A stretch of 64,000 bases of DNA, taken from Leptolyngbya sp. BC1307. Its GTDB lineage: Bacteria; Cyanobacteriota; Cyanobacteriia; Phormidesmidales; Phormidesmidaceae. The notes under the pieces were generated by a model. The model did no database searches and had not been told where the DNA came from. It saw only the letters and a list, made by a program, of their open reading frames with translations. Positions 7,631 through 57,976 of this stretch are shown one piece after another (the stretch's first letter is position 1; each line of letters opens with the position of its first letter). The stretch covers positions 1-64,000 of the forward strand of contig NZ_NRTA01000012.1 of the NCBI RefSeq assembly GCF_002286735.1, written 5' to 3'. A program made the position numbers and the translations under genes.

Positions 7631-8872
7631 ATGCTCTCCACCATTCAAAAGATCGCGACTAAGCTCTCACCCCGCATTATCGAAATTCGCCGCCACGTTC
7701 ACTCCCATCCCGAACTGAGCGGCCAAGAATATCAGACGGCTGCTTACATTTCGGGCGTGCTCTCTTCCTGCGGCTTTCATGTGCAGGAGATGGTCGGCAA
7801 GACGGGCGTTGTCGCTGAGCTAAAAGGCGAGACGCCGCCCAATCAGGACGTGCTAGCCATTCGCGCTGACATGGACGCGCTGCCGATTGTTGAAAAAACG
7901 GATCTGCCGTTCGTCTCTAAGAGTCCGGGGATTATGCATGCCTGTGGCCACGATGCGCACACGGCTGTTGGCCTCGGAACGGCGATGGTTTTAGCTGAGC
8001 TGGTCAATTCCAGCGAGCAGCTTTTTCCTAGCACGACTCGCTTTCTTTTTCAGCCCGCTGAAGAAACCTCTCAGGGGGCGAAGTGGATGATTGAAGACGG
8101 CGTTATGCAAGATGTTGCGGCTATTTTTGGCCTGCACGTATTTCCTAGCATTCCTGCTGGCGTGATTGGGCTGCGTCAGGGCGCGCTCACGGCTGCTGCC
8201 GATGATCTAGAAATTGTGATTTCGGGTGAATCTGGTCATGGTGCGCGCCCTCACGAAGCCATTGACGCTATTTGGATTGCGGCGCAGGTGATCACGCAGC
8301 TCCAGCAGTCAATTAGCCGGACGATTAACCCGCTGCACCCGGCTGTGATTACGATTGGTCAGATCTCGGGTGGTCGCGCGCCCAATGTGATTGCCGATCA
8401 GGTGCGTCTGACGGGGACAGTGCGATCGCTCCATGCCGACACCCACGCCCTGCTCCCAGAATGGATAGAGCGGATTGCAACCGACGTTTGTCACCTGCAT
8501 GGCGCGACCTGCACCGTCAACTATCGCCGTCGCTGTACCTCTGTGCTCAATGATCCTGATTTGACTCAGCTAGTGGCTGACTGTGCCAGTGAGGCGTTGG
8601 GCAGCGATCGCATTCAGTGGATCGCCGATGCCTCTATGGGCGCAGAAGATTTTGCTAACTACACCAGCCTCACCCGAGGGACGATGTTTCGCCTGGGCGT
8701 CGGCTTTGCAGGTCGCCACAACTATTCGCTACATCACTCGCAGTTTGAAATTGATGAGACGGCTCTGATATCTGGCGTGGTTACTATGGCGTATAGCGCT
8801 TATCGGTATTGGCAGTCTGGGAATGGGGAAACGGGGAACGGGGAAACGGGGAATGACCGGCTAGACCGCTGA
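7631..8872 (+). CDS. M20-family amidohydrolase (N-acyl amino acid/hippurate/IAA-amide hydrolase type)
   Basis: This 413-residue metallopeptidase-fold enzyme has the M20D marks: EIRRHVHSHPELSGQEY near 20-35, ALRADMDALP-type IRADMDALPI near 78, MHACGHDAHTA near 105-115 (metal His and Asp), QPAEETSQGAKWMIEDG near 140-155 (catalytic Glu pair), GLHVFP near 170, and SMGAEDFANY near 335 (metal Glu). The family removes acyl or aryl groups from amino acids, and peptidic substrates are also possible. The last dozen residues (GNGETGNGETGND) are encoded by a 15-bp tandem duplication and look like a recent, neutral extension. The preceding bases CTTTCC give no ribosome binding site. Confidence 0.9.
   Translation: MLSTIQKIATKLSPRIIEIRRHVHSHPELSGQEYQTAAYISGVLSSCGFHVQEMVGKTGVVAELKGETPPNQDVLAIRADMDALPIVEKTDLPFVSKSPGIMHACGHDAHTAVGLGTAMVLAELVNSSEQLFPSTTRFLFQPAEETSQGAKWMIEDGVMQDVAAIFGLHVFPSIPAGVIGLRQGALTAAADDLEIVISGESGHGARPHEAIDAIWIAAQVITQLQQSISRTINPLHPAVITIGQISGGRAPNVIADQVRLTGTVRSLHADTHALLPEWIERIATDVCHLHGATCTVNYRRRCTSVLNDPDLTQLVADCASEALGSDRIQWIADASMGAEDFANYTSLTRGTMFRLGVGFAGRHNYSLHHSQFEIDETALISGVVTMAYSAYRYWQSGNGETGNGETGNDRLDR
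8820..8855 (+). repeat. 15-bp in-frame minisatellite at the end of the M20 gene
   Basis: GGAATGGGGAAACGG (8820-8834) and GGAACGGGGAAACGG (8835-8849) are followed by a third partial unit (GGAATG). The 15-bp period keeps the reading frame and encodes two GNGET pentapeptides. Confidence 0.8.
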
Positions 8873-9026
8873 TTTTTAGATTCTGTTTTTAGAGAAAGGT
8901 TTCTTGCTTAAGCTTTGCCTTTTTTCAGTGATTGCTCTGATATTGCTCTGGGCAGAGGATATTTGAGAATCTATCTAAAGAAACTGATTGCTACTGATAT
9001 TTACTCTTTTAGAAGTGTTAGGTAAG

Positions 9027-9077
9027 CTACGGAATTTCGTAGTATGCAGTTTGATAGCGCTCGATAGATGGAGCGCT
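9027..9077 (+). promoter_or_regulatory. Two small dyads upstream of the lipoprotein gene
   Basis: CTACG-N6-CGTAG (9027-9042) and a perfect 7-bp dyad AGCGCTC-N8-GAGCGCT (9056-9077) lie 40-90 bases before the ATG at 9118. They could be an operator or a 5' leader structure. Nothing else was seen in the 245-bp gap. Confidence 0.3.
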
Positions 9078-9117
9078 GTGCTCTTCTTGTCGTCCAGCTA
9101 AGGAACATAGCAATACC

Positions 9118-9543
9118 ATGACGTTCTTTCAACGCAGCCGTCGCTGGCTCACAGCCCTAGCGCTAGTACTGCTGCTCACTGTTACTACCGGCTGTGCTAC
9201 GGCTACTCGTGAAGCTCCCACGGGAACTAATATCGGCTACGAGCAGCTACAGCGAGGCAACTCTACCGCTGGGCAAACCTATGGTGACTGGGTTGTCAGT
9301 GCAGCTCAAGGGCTGATCTCCGATGCCTACGTGCGCGATAACGACAAACTTGGCGTTGTTATCAGCGACTCGGTGCGGCCTAGCGAAGTGAAAGATCTTT
9401 CTCGATCTCTGCTTCAAGGCTTTCGCCAAAGCTTTCCTGATAAAGATTTGAAAGTACTGGTGTATGCCCCTGATAAGGAGCTGATTCTACAAGCTAACTA
9501 CGACTCGCAAACCCGGCAAGTCGAGTACGAACAGCCCGCATAA
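9118..9543 (+). CDS. Small predicted lipoprotein of unknown function
   Basis: This 141-residue protein starts with basic residues (QRSRRW), then a hydrophobic core (ALALVLLLTVTT) and a GC at residues 25-26 that can serve as lipobox (TTG-C). The mature part has a QTYGDWVV motif and ends with repeated short strands (LKVLVYAPDKELILQANYD). This suggests a small folded periplasmic domain anchored to a membrane by the lipidated cysteine. No family was recognised. AAGGAA lies 12 bases before the ATG. Confidence 0.7.
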   Translation: MTFFQRSRRWLTALALVLLLTVTTGCATATREAPTGTNIGYEQLQRGNSTAGQTYGDWVVSAAQGLISDAYVRDNDKLGVVISDSVRPSEVKDLSRSLLQGFRQSFPDKDLKVLVYAPDKELILQANYDSQTRQVEYEQPA

Positions 9544-9655
9544 CGGTTTGGTCAAGCCGGAGATGTCCAGACTGTTACCAGAACTTTAGGCAGTCTACGG
9601 TTCGCTTTGCTGGCACCATACCTACCAAACACTCATCAATTTGGAGTTTGCTCTC

Positions 9656-10168
9656 ATGTCTACAAGTGACAAATACAAGCGCGAGATCATGAAAGATCTC
9701 GCAGGCGGCAATAAAGAAGTCCTCAACGATAATGAAGCTTTAGGCGAAAAGTATCAGAGCTTCGATGACTTTGCTGATCGCTCTTCTCGCGATGAGCGGC
9801 ACGGTTTGCTCAAGCGGTCTTTCCATCCGGAGCGGGTGCCCGCGAGTCAGATGGACCCTGAGCTGAAGCAGGCGATCGCAAAAATCAAGCCAAACGAGCG
9901 CGATGATGTCGCTCGCGATTTCTTTAAGCATCTCAAAGAGCGAGGATTGAGCGATCGCGATCTAGAAAAGCAGCTGGGCCTTTCGACTCACAACCCCAAG
10001 AAAATGAATGCGGATGACGTGGGCAAGCTAGCGTCTTTTGCCTATACCGCTCACCCTGATGTCTTTCAAGATGTGCTAGCTGATCAGCCCGCTATTTTGA
10101 AGTTTTTGAGCAATCCGCTGGTAGGCGCGGCGATTGGGGCGATCGCGGCCAAGTGGCTTCATCGCTAA
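9656..10168 (+). CDS. Conserved hypothetical protein, acidic/basic helical with hydrophobic tail
   Basis: The 170-residue product is highly charged and mostly helical (KREIMKDLAGG, KIKPNERDDVARDFFKHLKERGLSDRDLEKQLGL), ending in a short hydrophobic segment (NPLVGAAIGAIAAKWLHR) that could touch a membrane or form a glycine-zipper helix. No catalytic motif is visible. ATG 9656 is preferred because GGAG lies 10 bases upstream. The in-frame TTG at 9641 overlaps that Shine-Dalgarno. A strong terminator follows, so it ends its own transcript. Confidence 0.75.
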   Translation: MSTSDKYKREIMKDLAGGNKEVLNDNEALGEKYQSFDDFADRSSRDERHGLLKRSFHPERVPASQMDPELKQAIAKIKPNERDDVARDFFKHLKERGLSDRDLEKQLGLSTHNPKKMNADDVGKLASFAYTAHPDVFQDVLADQPAILKFLSNPLVGAAIGAIAAKWLHR

Positions 10169-10217
10169 TGCAATTGGTTATTCTAAGGGCCTGAGCGCCT
10201 AGCTTAAGACCAATTTG

Positions 10218-10242
10218 AAGGGGTGCCTACGGGCACCTTTTT
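10218..10242 (+). terminator. Rho-independent terminator
   Basis: A GGTGCC/GGCACC stem (10222-10227 and 10232-10237) with a 4-base loop is extended by AAGG pairing with the following T run (TTTTT to 10242). It ends the 9656-10168 gene and overlaps an apparent upstream start of the next frame, which argues that the hydrolase starts later. Confidence 0.85.
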
Positions 10243-10298
10243 GCGTCAGGGCTGAGGGTAAACTGAACCTCAGTCCTGATTCATCGTCTACTCAGTTC

Positions 10299-11231
10299 AT
10301 GTTCACTCTTCATCTGTTTTCTCTGATCGCTATGGCTAGCTCCGCCGATAAAGCTATGAGCCCGCTACTGTTTGCCGGCAGCCTGACTGCTATTGCCTAT
10401 GCTGGCACCTGCCTTGCTCTCTATCACGCTCAGGCAAAGTTGATATTCCGTCCTTTGCCGCATCTGATGAGTACCCCAGCTGATAGCGGCTTGCCCTACG
10501 AAGACGTTTGGATACCGGTGAGTCAGGAGACTGGCGCAGATCTAGAAGCGGGTACGCTGCACGGCTGGTGGTTGCCTAATCCGGGCAGTCGTCAGGTGCT
10601 GCTGCTTTGCCACGGCAACTATGGCAATATCAGCTATAACTTAGAGCGCATTCGCTTTTATTACAATCTGGGCTTTTCGGTATTTGCCTTTGACTATCGC
10701 GGCTATGGTCAAAGCACTGGCGTTGGCCCCACCGAGCAAACCACCTATGCCGATGCTGAGATGGCGTGGCAATGCCTGACAGCAGTGCGCCAGATTGCGC
10801 CAGAGCAAATCACCGTTTGCGGCCACTCAATGGGCGGGGCGATCGCCATTCACCTGGCAACCCAACAGCCCCGCATGGCCAATCTCATCGTCAAAAGCTC
10901 ATTTACTGCCATGAAAGACGTGGTAAAGGGCAGAGCGATCTATCGCTTTTTTCCTATAGAGCAGTTGCTGACCCATCCTTTCGACTCTCTCAGTAAAGTC
11001 AGCCAGCTCAAAGTGCCCGTTCTCTACGTGCATGGCGATCAAGATCGAGATGTTCCGTCTTTCATGAGCGAGCATCTGTACAGGGCATCTCCTGATCCCA
11101 AAGAGATCTGGCTGGCAAAGGGTGCTAATCACAACAACATCGCCACCCTACTCGGAAACGCATATGGCGAAACGGTCAAAGCCTTCTGCTCAAACGCTTG
11201 GCTGCAATCAGCTCGGCAAAGCTTTGGTTAA
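10299..11231 (+). CDS. Alpha/beta hydrolase (BEM46/YfhR-like), membrane-anchored
   Basis: An N-terminal hydrophobic helix (SPLLFAGSLTAIAYAGTCLAL) precedes an alpha/beta-hydrolase domain with oxyanion motif LLCHGNYGNI, the FAFDYRGYGQSTG loop, nucleophile elbow CGHSMGGA (catalytic Ser), an acid in HGDQDRDVP, and His in GANHNN near the C-terminus. Length and anchor match the BEM46/YfhR (DUF-type serine hydrolase) family, whose natural substrates are unknown. ATG 10299 is chosen because the frame upstream of it crosses the terminator at 10218-10242. Confidence 0.88.
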   Translation: MFTLHLFSLIAMASSADKAMSPLLFAGSLTAIAYAGTCLALYHAQAKLIFRPLPHLMSTPADSGLPYEDVWIPVSQETGADLEAGTLHGWWLPNPGSRQVLLLCHGNYGNISYNLERIRFYYNLGFSVFAFDYRGYGQSTGVGPTEQTTYADAEMAWQCLTAVRQIAPEQITVCGHSMGGAIAIHLATQQPRMANLIVKSSFTAMKDVVKGRAIYRFFPIEQLLTHPFDSLSKVSQLKVPVLYVHGDQDRDVPSFMSEHLYRASPDPKEIWLAKGANHNNIATLLGNAYGETVKAFCSNAWLQSARQSFG

Positions 11232-11306
11232 TTGAAAAACAGAGATCTCCGCTAGAAATCTCCGCCACGGGTCGTCGTTAGTTTTTTAAAACCTTGCCTA
11301 ACCGTC

Positions 11307-11534
11307 CTACGTGGGCGTCTGCTGCAAATCTGGCTTTTCTTCCGGTAAAATTGCGCCTTCTACCGGGCAGACCTGTAGGCAGATGCCGCAGTCAATGCAG
11401 GTATCAAAATCAATCCAGTACCAGTCGGTGCCTTTTTTGTTTTTACCTGGCCCTTCGTGAATGCAGGCGACAGGGCAAGCATCGACGCAGTCGGCAACGC
11501 CTTCACACACGTTGGTCACAATGGAATGGGCCAC
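11307..11534 (-). CDS. Bacterial-type ferredoxin with two cluster motifs
   Basis: This 75-residue protein carries cysteines at 10, 16, 20 and 24 (C-x5-C-x3-C-x3-C) and at 46, 49, 52 and 56 (CIDCGICLQVCP). The second set is a standard [4Fe-4S] site. The first has the spacing of seven-iron/eight-iron ferredoxins with Cys20-Pro. It resembles the small bacterial-type ferredoxins of cyanobacteria, which act as alternative low-potential electron carriers. Start is GTG (GTG-GCC-CAT). It lies 36 bases downstream of hisZ on the same strand and is probably co-transcribed, with no obvious functional link to histidine synthesis. Confidence 0.88.
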   Translation of the reverse strand: MAHSIVTNVCEGVADCVDACPVACIHEGPGKNKKGTDWYWIDFDTCIDCGICLQVCPVEGAILPEEKPDLQQTPT

Positions 11535-11569
11535 AGGAGAGTCTCACTTTGAAAAGGGGCTTATCTAGC

Positions 11570-12826
11570 TTAGTTAACTATTTCGATTTCGGGCAAGCCC
11601 TGATCGGCAATCCAGGCGATGCGGCTGATGTTGCGTTTGCGGGCGATCGCTCTCACTTCCTCTACCGACTGCTCTAGGTCTAAGCTCATCTCTACCCGCA
11701 CCGTGTTCTCTGACTGGCGGGCCTTTTGCGCATAGGCCATGGCTGCCACCGCCGCCGATTCGCTCTTCGGCACAATCAGCCAGTCCGTCGGGGGAAGTTC
11801 GCCCGGTAGCTGACCGCTCGGCACTAGCTCCTGATGCAGCCGCTCAATATTTAAGACAAAGCCAATGCCCGGAAAGCCGTGACTGCCCGCAGCGGCATCG
11901 TAGACCGCCAGTAAATTGTCGTAGCGACCGCCCTGCCCTAGTATCTGGCGGCTAGCACTCACCACCTCAAAAACGATGCCCGTATAGTAACCAAAGGGCC
12001 GAATGAGGCTGAGATCTAAGACAATTGGCGGCACCGCAATGCCCTGCTGACGCTCCTGCTCAAACAGCGCTGTCAGAGACTTGAGCTGATAGGCGATCAC
12101 CTGCTGCTGCTCATCTAGATCAAACTCGCTTAGCTTCGCTAGCACAGTCTTAGGCTCGCCGCGTAAGTCCATCAGCTGCAGCGCCAGCGTCCGCAGTTCA
12201 GCAGGCAGCGTCATTTCTTCTAGCGCCACCCGGTCTAACGTCGCAATGTAGTGGCTTACCTGGTCGCGCATCGTCTCTGGAAAAGGCGACAGCAGCGAAT
12301 AGGTCAGGGCCGCTTCGCCCAGCACGAGCGTCGCATCGGACAGATTTAGCGTGCTCAGACAGGCCGAGACCAGCAGCACGGCTTCTGCATCGGCTACCAG
12401 ACCGCTGGCCCCGAGCAGCTCAATACCTGCCTGGTGATATTCCTGCTGGCCGCCCCGACTGCCCTGCGCCGAGCGCCGAAACACATTGGCATTGTAATAG
12501 AGCCGCTGCGGGTAAGTCACCGAAGCCAGCCGGGTCACCGCCGCTCGAGCAATCGAAGCGGTCAGCTCAGGGCGCAGACCTAGCCGCTGCTCGCCCACCT
12601 GCCCAATCTGTAGCTCGATCACCTCAGTTCGCTCAATGGCTCCGCCCGCCATCAGCGTATCCATCGTCTCTACCGTCGAGGTGATGATGCGATGGTAGCC
12701 CCACCGATGAAAGACCTGCTCCAAGCGGTCTTCAATCCAATGCTTTTGGACGACATCGAGCGGGAGTAAGTCGCGGCCACCGGTGGGGGGCTGGTATGTA
12801 TTTCCTACTGGGTTTCCTGCGGGCAT
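11570..12826 (-). CDS. hisZ: ATP phosphoribosyltransferase regulatory subunit HisZ
   Basis: This 418-residue class II aminoacyl-tRNA-synthetase-like protein has the HisZ/HisS core: GGRDLLPLDV near the N-terminus, VFHRWGYHRIITSTVE, GLRPELTASIARAAVTRLA (motif 2 region), RLYYNANVFRR and a RPFGYYTGIVFEV motif followed by GGRYDNLLAVY. It lacks a real anticodon-binding domain. HisZ activates the short form of HisG in the first step of histidine synthesis and binds histidine for feedback. The ATG immediately follows the TAG of the J-domain gene, with no spacer, so the two are translationally linked. Confidence 0.92.
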   Translation of the reverse strand: MPAGNPVGNTYQPPTGGRDLLPLDVVQKHWIEDRLEQVFHRWGYHRIITSTVETMDTLMAGGAIERTEVIELQIGQVGEQRLGLRPELTASIARAAVTRLASVTYPQRLYYNANVFRRSAQGSRGGQQEYHQAGIELLGASGLVADAEAVLLVSACLSTLNLSDATLVLGEAALTYSLLSPFPETMRDQVSHYIATLDRVALEEMTLPAELRTLALQLMDLRGEPKTVLAKLSEFDLDEQQQVIAYQLKSLTALFEQERQQGIAVPPIVLDLSLIRPFGYYTGIVFEVVSASRQILGQGGRYDNLLAVYDAAAGSHGFPGIGFVLNIERLHQELVPSGQLPGELPPTDWLIVPKSESAAVAAMAYAQKARQSENTVRVEMSLDLEQSVEEVRAIARKRNISRIAWIADQGLPEIEIVN

Positions 12827-52600: not shown

Positions 52601-52978
52601 ATGCCAGCAAACGATTCTGAGCTAAAAGCTCAGGCACAGAAGATTTTAGACGAAATTGCTTTTACGCCTTTTGAAGTCGGTCTGCCGCTTGATCGCAAGT
52701 TTGGAAATGTTCCTATGCGTCCTGGTATCTATGCCATTAGGCACAGAACTGATGGATTGCTTTACATCGGAAAAACTAAGAATCTGCGAAGCCGTTTCAG
52801 CGGTGGGCACAAAGCTTTTCTATGGGCGTGGTTAGACAAATACCATGACAGCGACATTCGGATCGCATTGCAGCCTCTTCCTTACTGGCAAAGTCCCGCG
52901 CTATTATTGGAGCTAGAAGCCATTATCTTAAGAGCAACTGAGCCTCCTTACAACGTTCAAATTCCACCTGAAAGGTAA
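52601..52978 (+). CDS. GIY-YIG nuclease-domain protein
   Basis: This 125-residue protein has the GIY-YIG core: PGIYAIRHRTDGLLYIGKTKN, with GIY at 42-44 and YIG at 55-57, and Arg residues at 63 and 65 (NLRSRF). A Glu (105 or 107) in LLLELEAIILRATEPPYN completes the catalytic set. The domain is complete and the N-terminal 35 residues are a helical extension. It is followed by a small gene after 5 bases. GIY-YIG nucleases act in repair, mobile elements and defence. Function here is not known. Confidence 0.88.
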   Translation: MPANDSELKAQAQKILDEIAFTPFEVGLPLDRKFGNVPMRPGIYAIRHRTDGLLYIGKTKNLRSRFSGGHKAFLWAWLDKYHDSDIRIALQPLPYWQSPALLLELEAIILRATEPPYNVQIPPER

Positions 52979-52983
52979 ATGCT

Positions 52984-53199
52984 ATGCAAACTAAGCTTCA
53001 GGAGCAGTTGGCTCCCGCTGATGCCGAAGTTATTTTGAACTGTTTGCCAAAAAGAATTCGAGAGGCTTTGATTGCTCGTGCTATTGAAATTGAGTATCCT
53101 GTTGAAGCTGTGGTCGAAATGGCGATCGCTAGCTTTTTAGATACAGAAGCGCTGGGCTTTGCTGACTGCAAACCAGGACGTGGACAGTCTACAACGTAG
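52984..53199 (+). CDS. Small helical protein paired with the GIY-YIG nuclease
   Basis: This 71-residue protein (EQLAPADAEVILNCLPKRIR, ALIARAIEIEYPVEAVVEMA) is helical and acidic with a short tail. It follows the nuclease with a 5-base gap, so it is in the same operon and could be its partner or antidote. No family was recognised. The short spacing and compact size are the only grounds for a functional link. Confidence 0.7.
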   Translation: MQTKLQEQLAPADAEVILNCLPKRIREALIARAIEIEYPVEAVVEMAIASFLDTEALGFADCKPGRGQSTT

Positions 53200-53291
53200 A
53201 AAAGTTCTCCGCTAAGTTTTATGAGTGACTTACAGATCGAAGCGAGCGTTCGCTACCTCTCATTGAGCAAAAGCAAGGTGGCCTCAACGCC

Positions 53292-53545
53292 AAGCAGCAA
53301 ATTGTCGAGGCTTAGCAGCAAATGTTTGAGCGATCGCAATAAACCATCAAGTCTTAGCAGCAGATGTTTGAGCGATCGCAATAAACCATCAAGGCTTAGC
53401 AGCAAATCATTGAGCGATCGCAATAAACTATCAAGTCTTAGCAGCAACTGTTTGAGCGATCGCCCCAACCCATCAAAGCCAAGCAACAAACACCCGTGTC
53501 ATAGCAGCAAATGTTTGAGCGATCGCCCTACTACGCTAAGCCTTA
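53292..53545 (+). repeat. 42-bp tandem repeat, about 5.5 units, each with a HIP1 octamer
   Basis: Units begin CTTAGCAGCA at 53311, 53353, 53395 and 53437, then a diverged unit at 53479 and a half-unit at 53500. Each contains TTTGAGCGATCGC-like sequence (the HIP1 palindrome GCGATCGC) except in the diverged unit. The period splits into two 21-bp half-units. A 21-bp half-unit also precedes the array from about 53292. The array lies just past the end of the CheB-CheR kinase gene. Apparent frames across it (for example 53221-53730) are repeat by-products. Confidence 0.85.
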
Positions 53546-53553
53546 ACGCTGTA

Positions 53554-56500
53554 TTAGGTATTGCTCTGATTAAGAGACCTATACTGCTCAATCAAATTCT
53601 TGAGCTGATCGAGATTCACAGGCTTAGTAAAGTGCTCATCAAACCCGGCGGCGCTGGCTTTGACTTTATCTTCTGGCTGGCCGTAGCCGCTATTGGCAAT
53701 CAAATAAACAGCGTCCAGTGCCGGATCTGAGCGAATGGCGCGGGCGAGGGCATAGCCATCCATCGCAGCGGTCAGGCCAATGTCGCTGATGATGACATCT
53801 GGCTGAAGCTGCCTGGCCAATGATAGTCCTTGCTCACCATTGTTTGCTATATCTATCTGGTAGCCCAAATCTTCTAGAAAAAGCTGTAGAAGAAAGGCCG
53901 AATCTTCGTTGTCTTCAACGATTAAGATATGTTGGGACCCGCTTGCTGCCACAGATGAAGCGCAAACAGCATCTGACGGAGGAGGCAAAACCTCGGTGGC
54001 TCCTATCAACTGGGGTAGCCTGATCATGACAGCAGTGCCTTGCCCTATCCCTGCACTCTCTGCCCAAATTTGCCCCTCATGAAACTCGATAATGCCCTTC
54101 GCTAAGGGTAATCCTAAGCCCAATCCACCGCTGCGAGCCAAACTGCGATCTTCCTGGCTAAACGCTGTGAAAATGCGAGTGAGCGCTTCTACTTCCATGC
54201 CAATGCCCGTATCAGTAGTTCGGGTGGTGATATGCTCTGACTCCACTTGGGTAGAGATCTCAATATGTCCATCGAGATCCGAGAACTTGATCGCATTTTG
54301 TAAGACATTGGTGAAAGCCTGCATCAGGCGAGCCGTGTCTCCATTGACCCAAATAACGGCCTCAGGCAGCACAGCATTGAGCGTAAGCCTTTTCTCTGAT
54401 ACAGCGCTCTCAGCATCTGTAACTAGATCTCGGAGCAGCTGCGTCAGATCCATTTGCTGCCGGTGTAGCTGAATCTTTTGGTAGGCAACTCGCGAAACAT
54501 CAAGCAAGTCATCTACCAGGCGAGTGAGCTGGGTGAGCTGGCGACTGGCGACGGCATGAAGCTGCCCGGCGCGCTGGTGAAGCTGCTCATGCGATTCATC
54601 GCGAGAGGCTGTCTCTGTAAAATCTGCTTCTTCCAGGGTTTGCATCAGCGTAATGCTGTTGCTAATCGCGTTGAGCGGGTTGCGCAGTTCATGCCCTAAG
54701 GCCGCCAAGAAGTCGTCCTTACGGCGGTCAGCGGCTTTTAGCTCCGCTTCATTTTGCTTGCGCTCAGTAATGTCTTCAATTGCCAGCAAAATCATGTCGG
54801 CGTTGTCTTCTCGTTGCAGCCTGCAAGCATTTAGCAGCAGTGTTTTTTGCCCAATTTGCTCGAAATTATGCTCCACATCCAGATCCTGAATCGGACGATG
54901 ATTGATCAGCATTTCTTCGAGAGCTAATCGCAGTGCGGGAACATTCCACTGCCCGTTGCCGAGTTCAAACAAAGAGACCTGCTCGGTGGCTGAAGCGGAC
55001 ACCTGAAACGTTTTGTAGAAGGCTCGATTGGCGGTGTTGACTTGCAAATCGGCATCGAGCGCCACCAGCGGGATTTGCACGGTTTCGACGATCGCTTCGG
55101 CATAGTTGCGGGCAGCTTCTAAGGTAGCAGAATGGCGTTTGAGCGCGTCAATGTCCATAAATACCAGCGTCACGCCGTCGATTTGGTTTTCCGTGGTGCG
55201 ATAGGGACGAATGCGGAGGCTGTACCAATGACCCTCTTGGGTTTGAAGCTCCTGTTCTTGGGTGTTGAGGGTTTCCAGCACCTCTAAAATCATCGGTTCT
55301 AGCTGGGAAACATCGAAGTTGGCGTGGAGGTCGCTAAACGGTCGCCCGACATCGGTCGGAATAAAATTGAATAGGCGCTGGGCGGTGGGGGTAAAGCGGC
55401 GAATCCTTAAGTCGTTGGTCAGCATGACAATCGGCACACTGATGCTGGCAACAAAGTTGTTCAGGTCGCTGTTGTCACGGTTTTGTTGCAGGTTGCGGCT
55501 GCGAAGTTCGTCGTTGGTAGTCGAGAGTTCTTCATTGGTGGCTTGAATCTCTTCCTTTGCCGTTTGCAGTTCTTCGTTGGTGCTTTGCAGTTCCTCGTTG
55601 CTAGATAGGATTTCTTCGTTGGCCACCCGCAGGCTTTGGTTCAGTTGGTTTTGCTCCTGAATCACCGCTTGCAGGTGAGCTTGCGCCGAGAGTTCTCGTT
55701 GGGTTGCGGCGGCCAGTGATTCCCGCAACTGCATATTTTCCCGCTCTAGATCGGCTGGCTCTTGGCTGGAGATCGAGGCAGGGCTGAGGGCAGGGGCGGT
55801 GGGTGAAACGGTTTCCAACACGACCAGAAAATAGAGCGCGTCCGTCGTGGTTGGACGAAACGGCATCACTTCTAGATTGAGCCAGTGCGGTTGCTCCCCC
55901 GCTTCTAGCTGAATCTGTTCTTGGCGCACGACCGCGTTTTCGGTCTGGGCCTGATACAGGGCAGTGCGAAGGACAATCGCTAAGCTTTCCCGTGCCATCA
56001 GCAGCAGGTTTAGCTCGGTGGTTCCCGGTATCAATTCCATATAGGGGTTGAGATCGCCGCGCATTTGCAAAATCTGCATCTGGTCATCCACCACGACGGA
56101 TAGCGGCGCGTAGCGGTTTGAGATCAGTTGGCTCACTTCTTGCGCTAGATCAACCGGACTGACGAAGCTTTCAGAGATGCGTTGCGGACTGTTAGCGCTG
56201 GAGGCAGGTTGAGTCGTCGTAAACGAAAATAAGGGACGAGTCGAGGTCAATTTGCGGGCATAGAGCTTGCAGGATTCATCCACAGTCGCAAACAAATCTG
56301 AGGCGTTTTTGACGGTTTCAGACGTGCCCAGCAGCAGCAAGCCGGTTAAGTTGAGACTGTAATGAAACAGCGACATCAGGCGTTTTTGCAGCGGGTCTGA
56401 CAAATAAATCAGCACGTTGCGACAGCTAATTAGATCGAGATTGGAGAAGGGGGGGTCGCCTACTAAGTTATGACGGGCAAACACACACAGTCCGCGGATA

Positions 56501-57768
56501 GCGCTGCTAATTTGATACCCACCGCTAGGTAAGGACACAAAGAAGCGGCGTTGACGCTCCGGTGAAACCCCTTTCATCTCGCTGTCTAAATAGAAGCCGG
56601 ATCTGGCTTTGCTAATGGCCGTTTCGCTGATGTCGGTGGCAAAAATCTGAATCGGCGGCACGGTCGCCTGATCGTCGAAAAACTCTAGCAGGCAAACGGC
56701 GATCGAATATACTTCTTGCCCAGTGGAGCAGCCTGCCACCCAGATCCGCAGCGGCGCATCGAGCGATTTGTTTTCGCTAATCTTGGGGAAAATCTGCACC
56801 TTCAATTGTTCAAAGACTTGGGGATCGCGGAAGAAACTGGTGACGTGGATCAGAATTTCTTCATACAATGCCTGCACTTCTTCCGGATGCGCTTGCAGAT
56901 ATTCAGCGTACTCTTCCAGGCTTTCGAGTTGATACAACACCATCCGGCGCTGCATCCGGCGATTTAAAGTGTTCGGTTTGTAGCGCGTGAAATCAACCCC
57001 GGTTGTTGTCCGCAAGAGCGCAAAGATTTTCGCCAACGCATCACCCGGCGGGGGCGGCACCTCCTTCACCGCTTGGATTAGATCTGCGGCAAACAACAAG
57101 GGGCTGCGGCTCAGTTTGGTTAGTTCTGCGGCGATTTGTTCCGGCGGCAGCACAAAATCCACGTTGCCCGTCGCCACTGCCGTATTTGGCATACTGTCGA
57201 ACTTGGCTGTACTTTCGCACTGAGCAAAGGTGACGCCGCCAGCCACCTTGACCGCTTTCAACCCATGGGAACCATCGCCATCGGTGCCGGATAACACGAC
57301 GGCGATCGCTTTAGTGCCGCGATCAAGCGCTAACGACTCAAAAAACGCATCTCCCGGATGATGTTTCCCATTAGTTTTCTGTCGCGGAACTAGATGTAGC
57401 AGTCCGTCCTCCAGCGTCATCTGGGTGCCGGGCGGAATCACGTAGATTTCGTTTGGCTCGACTGTCATCCGGTCTGTCACCTGCTGCACAGGCATGGTGG
57501 TAGCTCTGCCCAAAATTTCAGACAGCAAGCTTTCGTGGTCAGGCGATAAATGCTGAATCAGCACGAACGCCATGCCCGTATCGGTGGGCAGGTGACAGAT
57601 CAGTTCCGTAAATGCCTCTAATCCTCCGGCGGAAGCGGCAATACCCACTACTGGAAAGGGAGCATCGGTTTTGAAGGATTGCTCCGAGTCCATGGTTTTA
57701 ATCGCAACCGCTTGTGAGTCACTCGCAACGAGCGCGCCAGATGAATTGTCTTCGGAGGGGGACATCAT
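53554..57768 (-). CDS. CheB-CheR-PAS-histidine kinase-receiver hybrid protein
   Basis: This 1404-residue protein has an N-terminal CheB methylesterase domain at about 38-225 with Ser46 (GIAASAGGLEAF), His73 (QHLSPDHES) and Asp165 (LSGTDGDG). A CheR methyltransferase domain follows (near 250-510, VAGCSTGQEVYSIAV), then a coiled coil (NEEILSSNEELQSTNEELQT), two PAS-like domains, a histidine kinase (LGHELRNPLNAIS H-box; NVLQNAIKFS N-box; GGLGLGLPLAKG) and a C-terminal receiver (ILIVEDNEDSAF, IISDIGL with the phospho-Asp, FTKPVNL). It lacks a CheB receiver. Such fusions are signal integrators. No receptor or CheA partner is nearby. The start MMSP at 57768 has a second ATG at codon 2. Confidence 0.92.
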   Translation of the reverse strand: MMSPSEDNSSGALVASDSQAVAIKTMDSEQSFKTDAPFPVVGIAASAGGLEAFTELICHLPTDTGMAFVLIQHLSPDHESLLSEILGRATTMPVQQVTDRMTVEPNEIYVIPPGTQMTLEDGLLHLVPRQKTNGKHHPGDAFFESLALDRGTKAIAVVLSGTDGDGSHGLKAVKVAGGVTFAQCESTAKFDSMPNTAVATGNVDFVLPPEQIAAELTKLSRSPLLFAADLIQAVKEVPPPPGDALAKIFALLRTTTGVDFTRYKPNTLNRRMQRRMVLYQLESLEEYAEYLQAHPEEVQALYEEILIHVTSFFRDPQVFEQLKVQIFPKISENKSLDAPLRIWVAGCSTGQEVYSIAVCLLEFFDDQATVPPIQIFATDISETAISKARSGFYLDSEMKGVSPERQRRFFVSLPSGGYQISSAIRGLCVFARHNLVGDPPFSNLDLISCRNVLIYLSDPLQKRLMSLFHYSLNLTGLLLLGTSETVKNASDLFATVDESCKLYARKLTSTRPLFSFTTTQPASSANSPQRISESFVSPVDLAQEVSQLISNRYAPLSVVVDDQMQILQMRGDLNPYMELIPGTTELNLLLMARESLAIVLRTALYQAQTENAVVRQEQIQLEAGEQPHWLNLEVMPFRPTTTDALYFLVVLETVSPTAPALSPASISSQEPADLERENMQLRESLAAATQRELSAQAHLQAVIQEQNQLNQSLRVANEEILSSNEELQSTNEELQTAKEEIQATNEELSTTNDELRSRNLQQNRDNSDLNNFVASISVPIVMLTNDLRIRRFTPTAQRLFNFIPTDVGRPFSDLHANFDVSQLEPMILEVLETLNTQEQELQTQEGHWYSLRIRPYRTTENQIDGVTLVFMDIDALKRHSATLEAARNYAEAIVETVQIPLVALDADLQVNTANRAFYKTFQVSASATEQVSLFELGNGQWNVPALRLALEEMLINHRPIQDLDVEHNFEQIGQKTLLLNACRLQREDNADMILLAIEDITERKQNEAELKAADRRKDDFLAALGHELRNPLNAISNSITLMQTLEEADFTETASRDESHEQLHQRAGQLHAVASRQLTQLTRLVDDLLDVSRVAYQKIQLHRQQMDLTQLLRDLVTDAESAVSEKRLTLNAVLPEAVIWVNGDTARLMQAFTNVLQNAIKFSDLDGHIEISTQVESEHITTRTTDTGIGMEVEALTRIFTAFSQEDRSLARSGGLGLGLPLAKGIIEFHEGQIWAESAGIGQGTAVMIRLPQLIGATEVLPPPSDAVCASSVAASGSQHILIVEDNEDSAFLLQLFLEDLGYQIDIANNGEQGLSLARQLQPDVIISDIGLTAAMDGYALARAIRSDPALDAVYLIANSGYGQPEDKVKASAAGFDEHFTKPVNLDQLKNLIEQYRSLNQSNT

Positions 57769-57976
57769 GATTTAAGGGTGGCGATCAGCTCGGCAGGGTG
57801 AATTCAACGGTCTTTTGTAAAGTCTGGCTAGCCGTTGAGTTCACTACGACGCAGCCGACGCCAATACTTTTTTGTCAGTCAGCCAGGTGGAAACCGCTTG
57901 TTTCCTACCTTACTACTTTTTTTGCGAGGAGACTCGTGAGGGAAAAATCGATAAAGCAGCCATTACGCACAGCTTT

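Follow-up and report, generated by a model that had tools for sequence, protein, structure and literature searches.

Intergenic tandem repeats of more than one kind are known in cyanobacteria. The heptanucleotide repeats of this phylum go by the name of STRR, and the LTRR, whose unit measures 37 bp, are present at several places of their genome. Heptanucleotide repeats, including the G-rich GGGGA(C/T)T, are described as intergenic tandem repeats (PMC4692102), and the LTRR (long tandemly repeated repetitive sequences) of Anabaena PCC 7120 as intergenic with units of tens of bases (PMC2408588). The array analyzed here lies at positions 53248-53541 of a 64,000-nucleotide stretch, hereafter the window, that opens contig NZ_NRTA01000012.1 of Leptolyngbya sp. 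BC1307, a draft assembly of 4.92 Mb in 222 contigs. It resembles the heptanucleotide repeats in being intergenic, tandem and cyanobacterial, but it lacks 14-, 28- and 35-bp periodicity (lag identity 0.25, 0.25 and 0.23), and we rejected its identification as an STRR because it contains no 7-bp unit. Compared by description only, the LTRR share with it an intergenic tandem arrangement and units of tens of bases; they recur in their genome, however, whereas the array and its unit occur a single time in theirs. Its head-to-tail units fall within the roughly 10-100 bp characteristic of bacterial intergenic minisatellites. A CRISPR array was discarded as a candidate, since the units abut, both halves repeat and there are no unique spacers.

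The array comprises 14 half-units of 21 bp, all in one register (53248-53541), which are distributed over a nearly uniform core and two edges, with identities given relative to the consensus of half a or half b:

53248-53310, no strand assigned: decayed upstream edge, with half-units at 53248 (a-like, 12/21), 53269 (b-like, 10/21) and 53290 (a-like, 15/21)
53311-53478, no strand assigned: array core of four abutting 42-bp units, each made of half a, CTTAGCAGCAAATGTTTGAGC, and half b, GATCGCAATAAACCATCAAGT, of 21 bp each
53479-53541, no strand assigned: downstream edge, with half-units at 53479 (11/21 to a and to b), 53500 (a, 20/21) and 53521 (b-like, 12/21)

The core units start at 53311, 53353, 53395 and 53437 and vary at 11 of their 42 columns, bearing out an earlier, sequence-only account of this DNA (the preliminary description) that had recognized 42-bp units made of two 21-bp halves; four of these are contiguous and the edges are decayed. 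Edge half-units retain 10-15 of 21 positions of the a or b consensus, with the exception of the one at 53500, and those upstream keep the 21-bp register of the core. The order of half-units is a-like, b-like, a-like, four a-b pairs, mixed, a, b-like, so that the alternation is interrupted twice by neighboring a-type half-units (53290/53311 and 53479/53500). Tandem Repeats Finder (TRF) scores the array at 264 for period 42, with 3.6 copies of the 42-bp (2 x 21) unit, and at 275 for period 84; these are the top scores among its 15 rows for the window and place the array far beyond chance. Self-identity over 53248-53541 is 0.46, 0.60 and 0.53 at lags 21, 42 and 63, as against about 0.23 at lags 20, 22, 41 and 43, and its maxima at 21, 42, 63, 84, 105 and 126 reveal a register unbroken by indels, none of which is found across the 294 bp. 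Halves a and b are identical at 10 of 21 positions (P of about 0.02 by comparison with 21-mers taken at random from the window), a likeness that is suggestive of a 21-bp ancestor without amounting to proof.

The genes on either side of the array end towards each other, leaving a gap of 354 bp (53200-53553) within which the array is contained:

52984-53199, plus strand: left flanking small gene of 71 aa, paired with a GIY-YIG gene at 52601-52978
53554-57768, minus strand: right flanking gene of 1404 aa, encoding a CheB-CheR-PAS-histidine kinase-response regulator, with its end about 12 bp from the array

The array is intergenic by the flank test of the survey detailed below. Two further frames are open across the core, on the plus strand (53221-53730) and on the minus strand (53253-53489). 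The pair formed by the GIY-YIG gene and the small gene (52601-53199) also occurs elsewhere in the genus, in no fewer than two genomes (L052 5955-6740 and L053 6500-7286); there the second gene encodes 135 aa, and the 71-aa copy of the window has no Pfam match. No array accompanies this pair in two genomes of the same genus, nor does one lie beside the nearest relatives of the kinase gene, likewise in two same-genus genomes. The kinase gene itself is duplicated, 53546-57817 matching 7824-12095 of locus L049 on contig C20 with 92% DNA identity over 4.3 kb. The similarity starts at 53546, just past the array, and extends little beyond the gene; the C20 copy has no array alongside, the sequence on that side being unrelated. 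It is preceded by a gene (L049 5870-7255) that we take to be transposase-like.

The description of the repeat as HIP1-bearing was accurate. Five copies of this palindrome occur in the array, the first being:

53330-53337, no strand assigned: HIP1 site GCGATCGC, followed by others at 53372, 53414, 53456 and 53519

These sites are spaced by 42, 42, 42 and 63 bp. The whole window is rich in HIP1, with 84 occurrences of the motif against 2.2 expected, and only inside the array do three or more fall within 200 bp; HIP1 is generally dispersed, whereas the array carries one per 42-bp unit. A search for three HIP1 sites within allowed gaps returned matches in 100 of 386 genomes, and a few of the matches listed correspond to tandem repeats in which HIP1 recurs at a different period, about 30 bp in the case of G420; of the six triples in the genome of the array, two belong to the array itself. 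Small mobile repeats of the SDR5 type are reported to insert between the third and fourth base of HIP1 (PMC4390886); we rejected such an element here, all five HIP1 sites of the array being uninterrupted.

In one forward frame, which we term the Gln-frame and in which stops are read as glutamine, the units alternate between TAG or AAG at one position and TAA or CAA at another, the pattern that had drawn attention to the locus and that was found as described. Its eight stops are five TAG (53313, 53355, 53397, 53439 and 53502, with AAG at 53292 and 53481) and three TAA (53340, 53382 and 53424, with CAA at the matching position of the fourth unit). Recoding of TAG and TAA as glutamine was considered and rejected, given that the small gene ends normally with TAG and the GIY-YIG gene with TAA. 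The 7-residue periodicity of the frame follows from the unit length, because any 21-bp array reads with a 7-residue period in all six frames.

The preliminary description had proposed looking for a homologous coding repeat with CAG or CAA at these positions in related genomes; the search yielded no relative of the Gln-frame in 63 genomes of the order or 386 of the phylum, two sets that overlap and that each contain the own genome, and of 32 pattern matches in GTDB contigs not one could be confirmed as a relative. Three GTDB contigs carrying the degenerate unit pattern were set aside, as each holds one copy with no surrounding tandem repeat. Protein searches with the Gln-frame matched, apart from the frame itself, 18 places spread over 10 other genomes and, in a second search, six others at E <= 0.01. 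None of the 13 of these 24 weak matches that were inspected is a homologous open frame; these comprise DNA repeats of 7 or 21 bp, one further repeat (L060) and a Gln/Lys/Leu-rich coding repeat (L062). At the DNA level, the 63 genomes of the order contain no relative of the array, apart from matches of 22-28 bp at or overlapping HIP1. Four of these (L002-L005) were rejected as relatives, all of them sitting in other sequence: L003 and L004 in one single flavoprotein-like gene, presumably UbiX-like, and L002 and L005 in other open frames.

Tandem arrays were surveyed with TRF in 2.5 Mb from six cyanobacterial genomes, comprising 519 kb of the own genome and 400 kb, always the beginning of a contig, from each of G055 (same genus), G003 (same family) and G130, G126 and G229 (same class). 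Arrays were retained if they had a period of at least 15, at least three copies and flanks mostly without ORFs of 100 aa. The commonest unit among the 32 resulting intergenic arrays is 21 bp, with 15 arrays; period 42 accounts for two, including that of the window, period 20 for one and period 22 for none. G130, G126 and G229 had been pre-selected through their matches in the Gln-frame search, which inflates their share. The period-21 arrays lie in G130 (10 in 400 kb, L126-L145) and G229 (five in 400 kb, L196-L215, plus one of 42 bp), with units of many different sequences, and the sampled parts of G126, G055, G003 and the own genome contain none; as far as sampled, the array is thus alone of its kind in its family and genus. 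The intergenic arrays of G126 at L191 (9565-13222) and L193 (3264-5397), of 81 and 121 bp, have a common block around CCTGGACATCCTGATTCAGACAA. Like the array of the window, the other 21-bp-register arrays (for instance L133 10151-10437, L141 3628-3886, L145 6596-6885 and L212 8715-8941) are intergenic tandem repeats of 21-bp units in a nearly constant register; some form 42-bp higher-order dimers, as at L133, where the 21-bp halves have also diverged, and their 7-residue periodic frames occur with and without stops. They differ in that their unit sequences are unrelated as far as compared, HIP1 is mostly absent and they are far denser in some genomes. The existence of 21-bp arrays devoid of HIP1 makes the term HIP1-based, used in the preliminary description for a non-coding minisatellite with an incidental frame, too strong; its non-coding and incidental components are supported.

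Four readings of the array were weighed. In an unlikely one, it is the fossil of a coding repeat made of Gln-rich, coiled-coil-like heptads; this repeat would have diverged while coding, its stops arising and spreading later by amplification. The Gln-frame has the only positive codon score of the six frames over the array, at about 0.098 (true-frame mean 0.15, wrong-frame mean -0.17, wrong-frame 99th percentile 0.104), and reaches 0.121 in the upstream edge; of 18 other intergenic arrays in 21-bp register, nonetheless, 15 have a best frame, often one with stops, that equals or exceeds the array-wide score. When random 42-mers of the own genome are each taken as a repeated unit, 84% likewise have a best frame at or above the single-unit Gln-frame score of 0.058. 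In codon usage the Gln-frame is hence unremarkable when set against the best of the six frames of comparable arrays. The frame also runs without indels over 294 bp, and its unit differences look conservative (M/I/L, F/I/V, S/A), with a BLOSUM sum, stops taken as Gln, of 6, the sole positive value against -14 to -39 in the other frames; yet when the same column changes were placed at random columns with the same base, 19% of 5000 trials did as well (P = 0.19), which is within chance. By codon phase of the Gln-frame, the 11 variable core columns divide 1/5/5, with one at the second position. Codon phase is absent from substitutions across the 19 arrays of period 21, 42 or 63, including that of the window, for which the fullest phases hold 65 against 68.9 expected (P = 0.90); the count for the window's array pools the two kinds of half and is not informative when taken alone. 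Against a fossil also stand the eight stops and the absence of relatives in the genomes and contigs searched, and, if amplification of the unit carried the stops along, selection in the Gln-frame cannot have acted on the differences that arose afterwards. The decay by C-to-T changes invoked for such a gene fits the TAA/CAA position; at the TAG position, the AAG of two edge half-units (53292 and 53481) makes A-to-T simpler than decay from CAG. The decayed coiled-coil gene is not supported, with no homologous open frame among the genomes and contigs searched, phase conservatism short of significance and codon usage that the best frame of most similar arrays matches.

Somewhat less probable still is an RNA or DNA element that shapes the kinase transcript at its 3' end, on the minus strand, or clusters methylatable HIP1 sites. 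None of 200 shuffles folds as well as the minus strand (z -2.77), and the five HIP1 sites, 42 or 63 bp apart, are found in a genome that encodes one C5-cytosine methyltransferase domain, for which HIP1 is a putative target. The fold of the plus strand, however, is ordinary (z -0.90), the array contains neither a terminator-like site nor an Rfam family, a single chance-level miRNA match lying elsewhere, and it is missing at the C20 kinase copy and at relatives; palindrome-bearing repeats may, moreover, produce such folding without function. As to a real small gene in one of the two open frames, both are indeed open across the core, and at least one open frame is present in each of the 19 arrays of period 21, 42 or 63, as expected for a 21-bp unit. 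We consider such a gene highly improbable: codon scores over the array are -0.31 for the plus frame, below the wrong-frame mean, and -0.10 for the minus frame, within one standard deviation, there is no Pfam match, the minus frame has no relative in the 62 other genomes of the order, and the plus ORF overlaps the end of the kinase gene by 177 bp.

We favor, with a probability of roughly 0.8, a non-coding intergenic minisatellite. A 21-bp segment would have been tandemly duplicated, its copies diverging into halves a and b, and the resulting 42-bp dimer would then have been amplified to four copies while leftover half-units at the edges decayed. We infer both this order of events and the agent, which may have been unequal crossing-over or replication slippage, the latter typically recognized by unit numbers that change among strains. 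Stop codons and HIP1 palindrome alike would be passengers copied along with the unit, and the array would be tolerated because it lies between two genes ending towards each other, with no function required of it. Several observations speak for this minisatellite: the register of 21 bp is perfect, the halves alternate, divergence increases away from a nearly uniform core, the genome contains no second such array, none lies next to the relatives of the neighboring genes, and other genomes have arrays of similar construction; the lone positive codon score and BLOSUM sum of the Gln-frame and the single variable column at second positions count against it, as does the fold of the minus strand, which a functional element might use.

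More tentatively, and with doubts that outweigh our confidence, the array could be an outlier in a widespread class of intergenic minisatellites of cyanobacteria, with units fixed at 21 bp (or 42, as 2 x 21) but differing in sequence, indifferent to codon phase and with a length set at the DNA level rather than by translation. No description of a 21-bp class was found in the parts of the literature that our search reached. Twenty-one base pairs correspond to two turns of B-DNA and to three heptamers, a correspondence under which a DNA-level process would set the unit length; helical phasing, a slippage step or a bound protein would be candidates. The single array is ordinary and this wider class is of greater interest. 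The array illustrates how readily a 21-bp repeat in constant register passes for a heptad protein interrupted by stops, which can mislead annotation as well as hunts after genes that are recoded or in decay. Should the 21-bp class prove real across cyanobacteria, it would pose a testable question, namely what fixes the unit length of a non-coding minisatellite.
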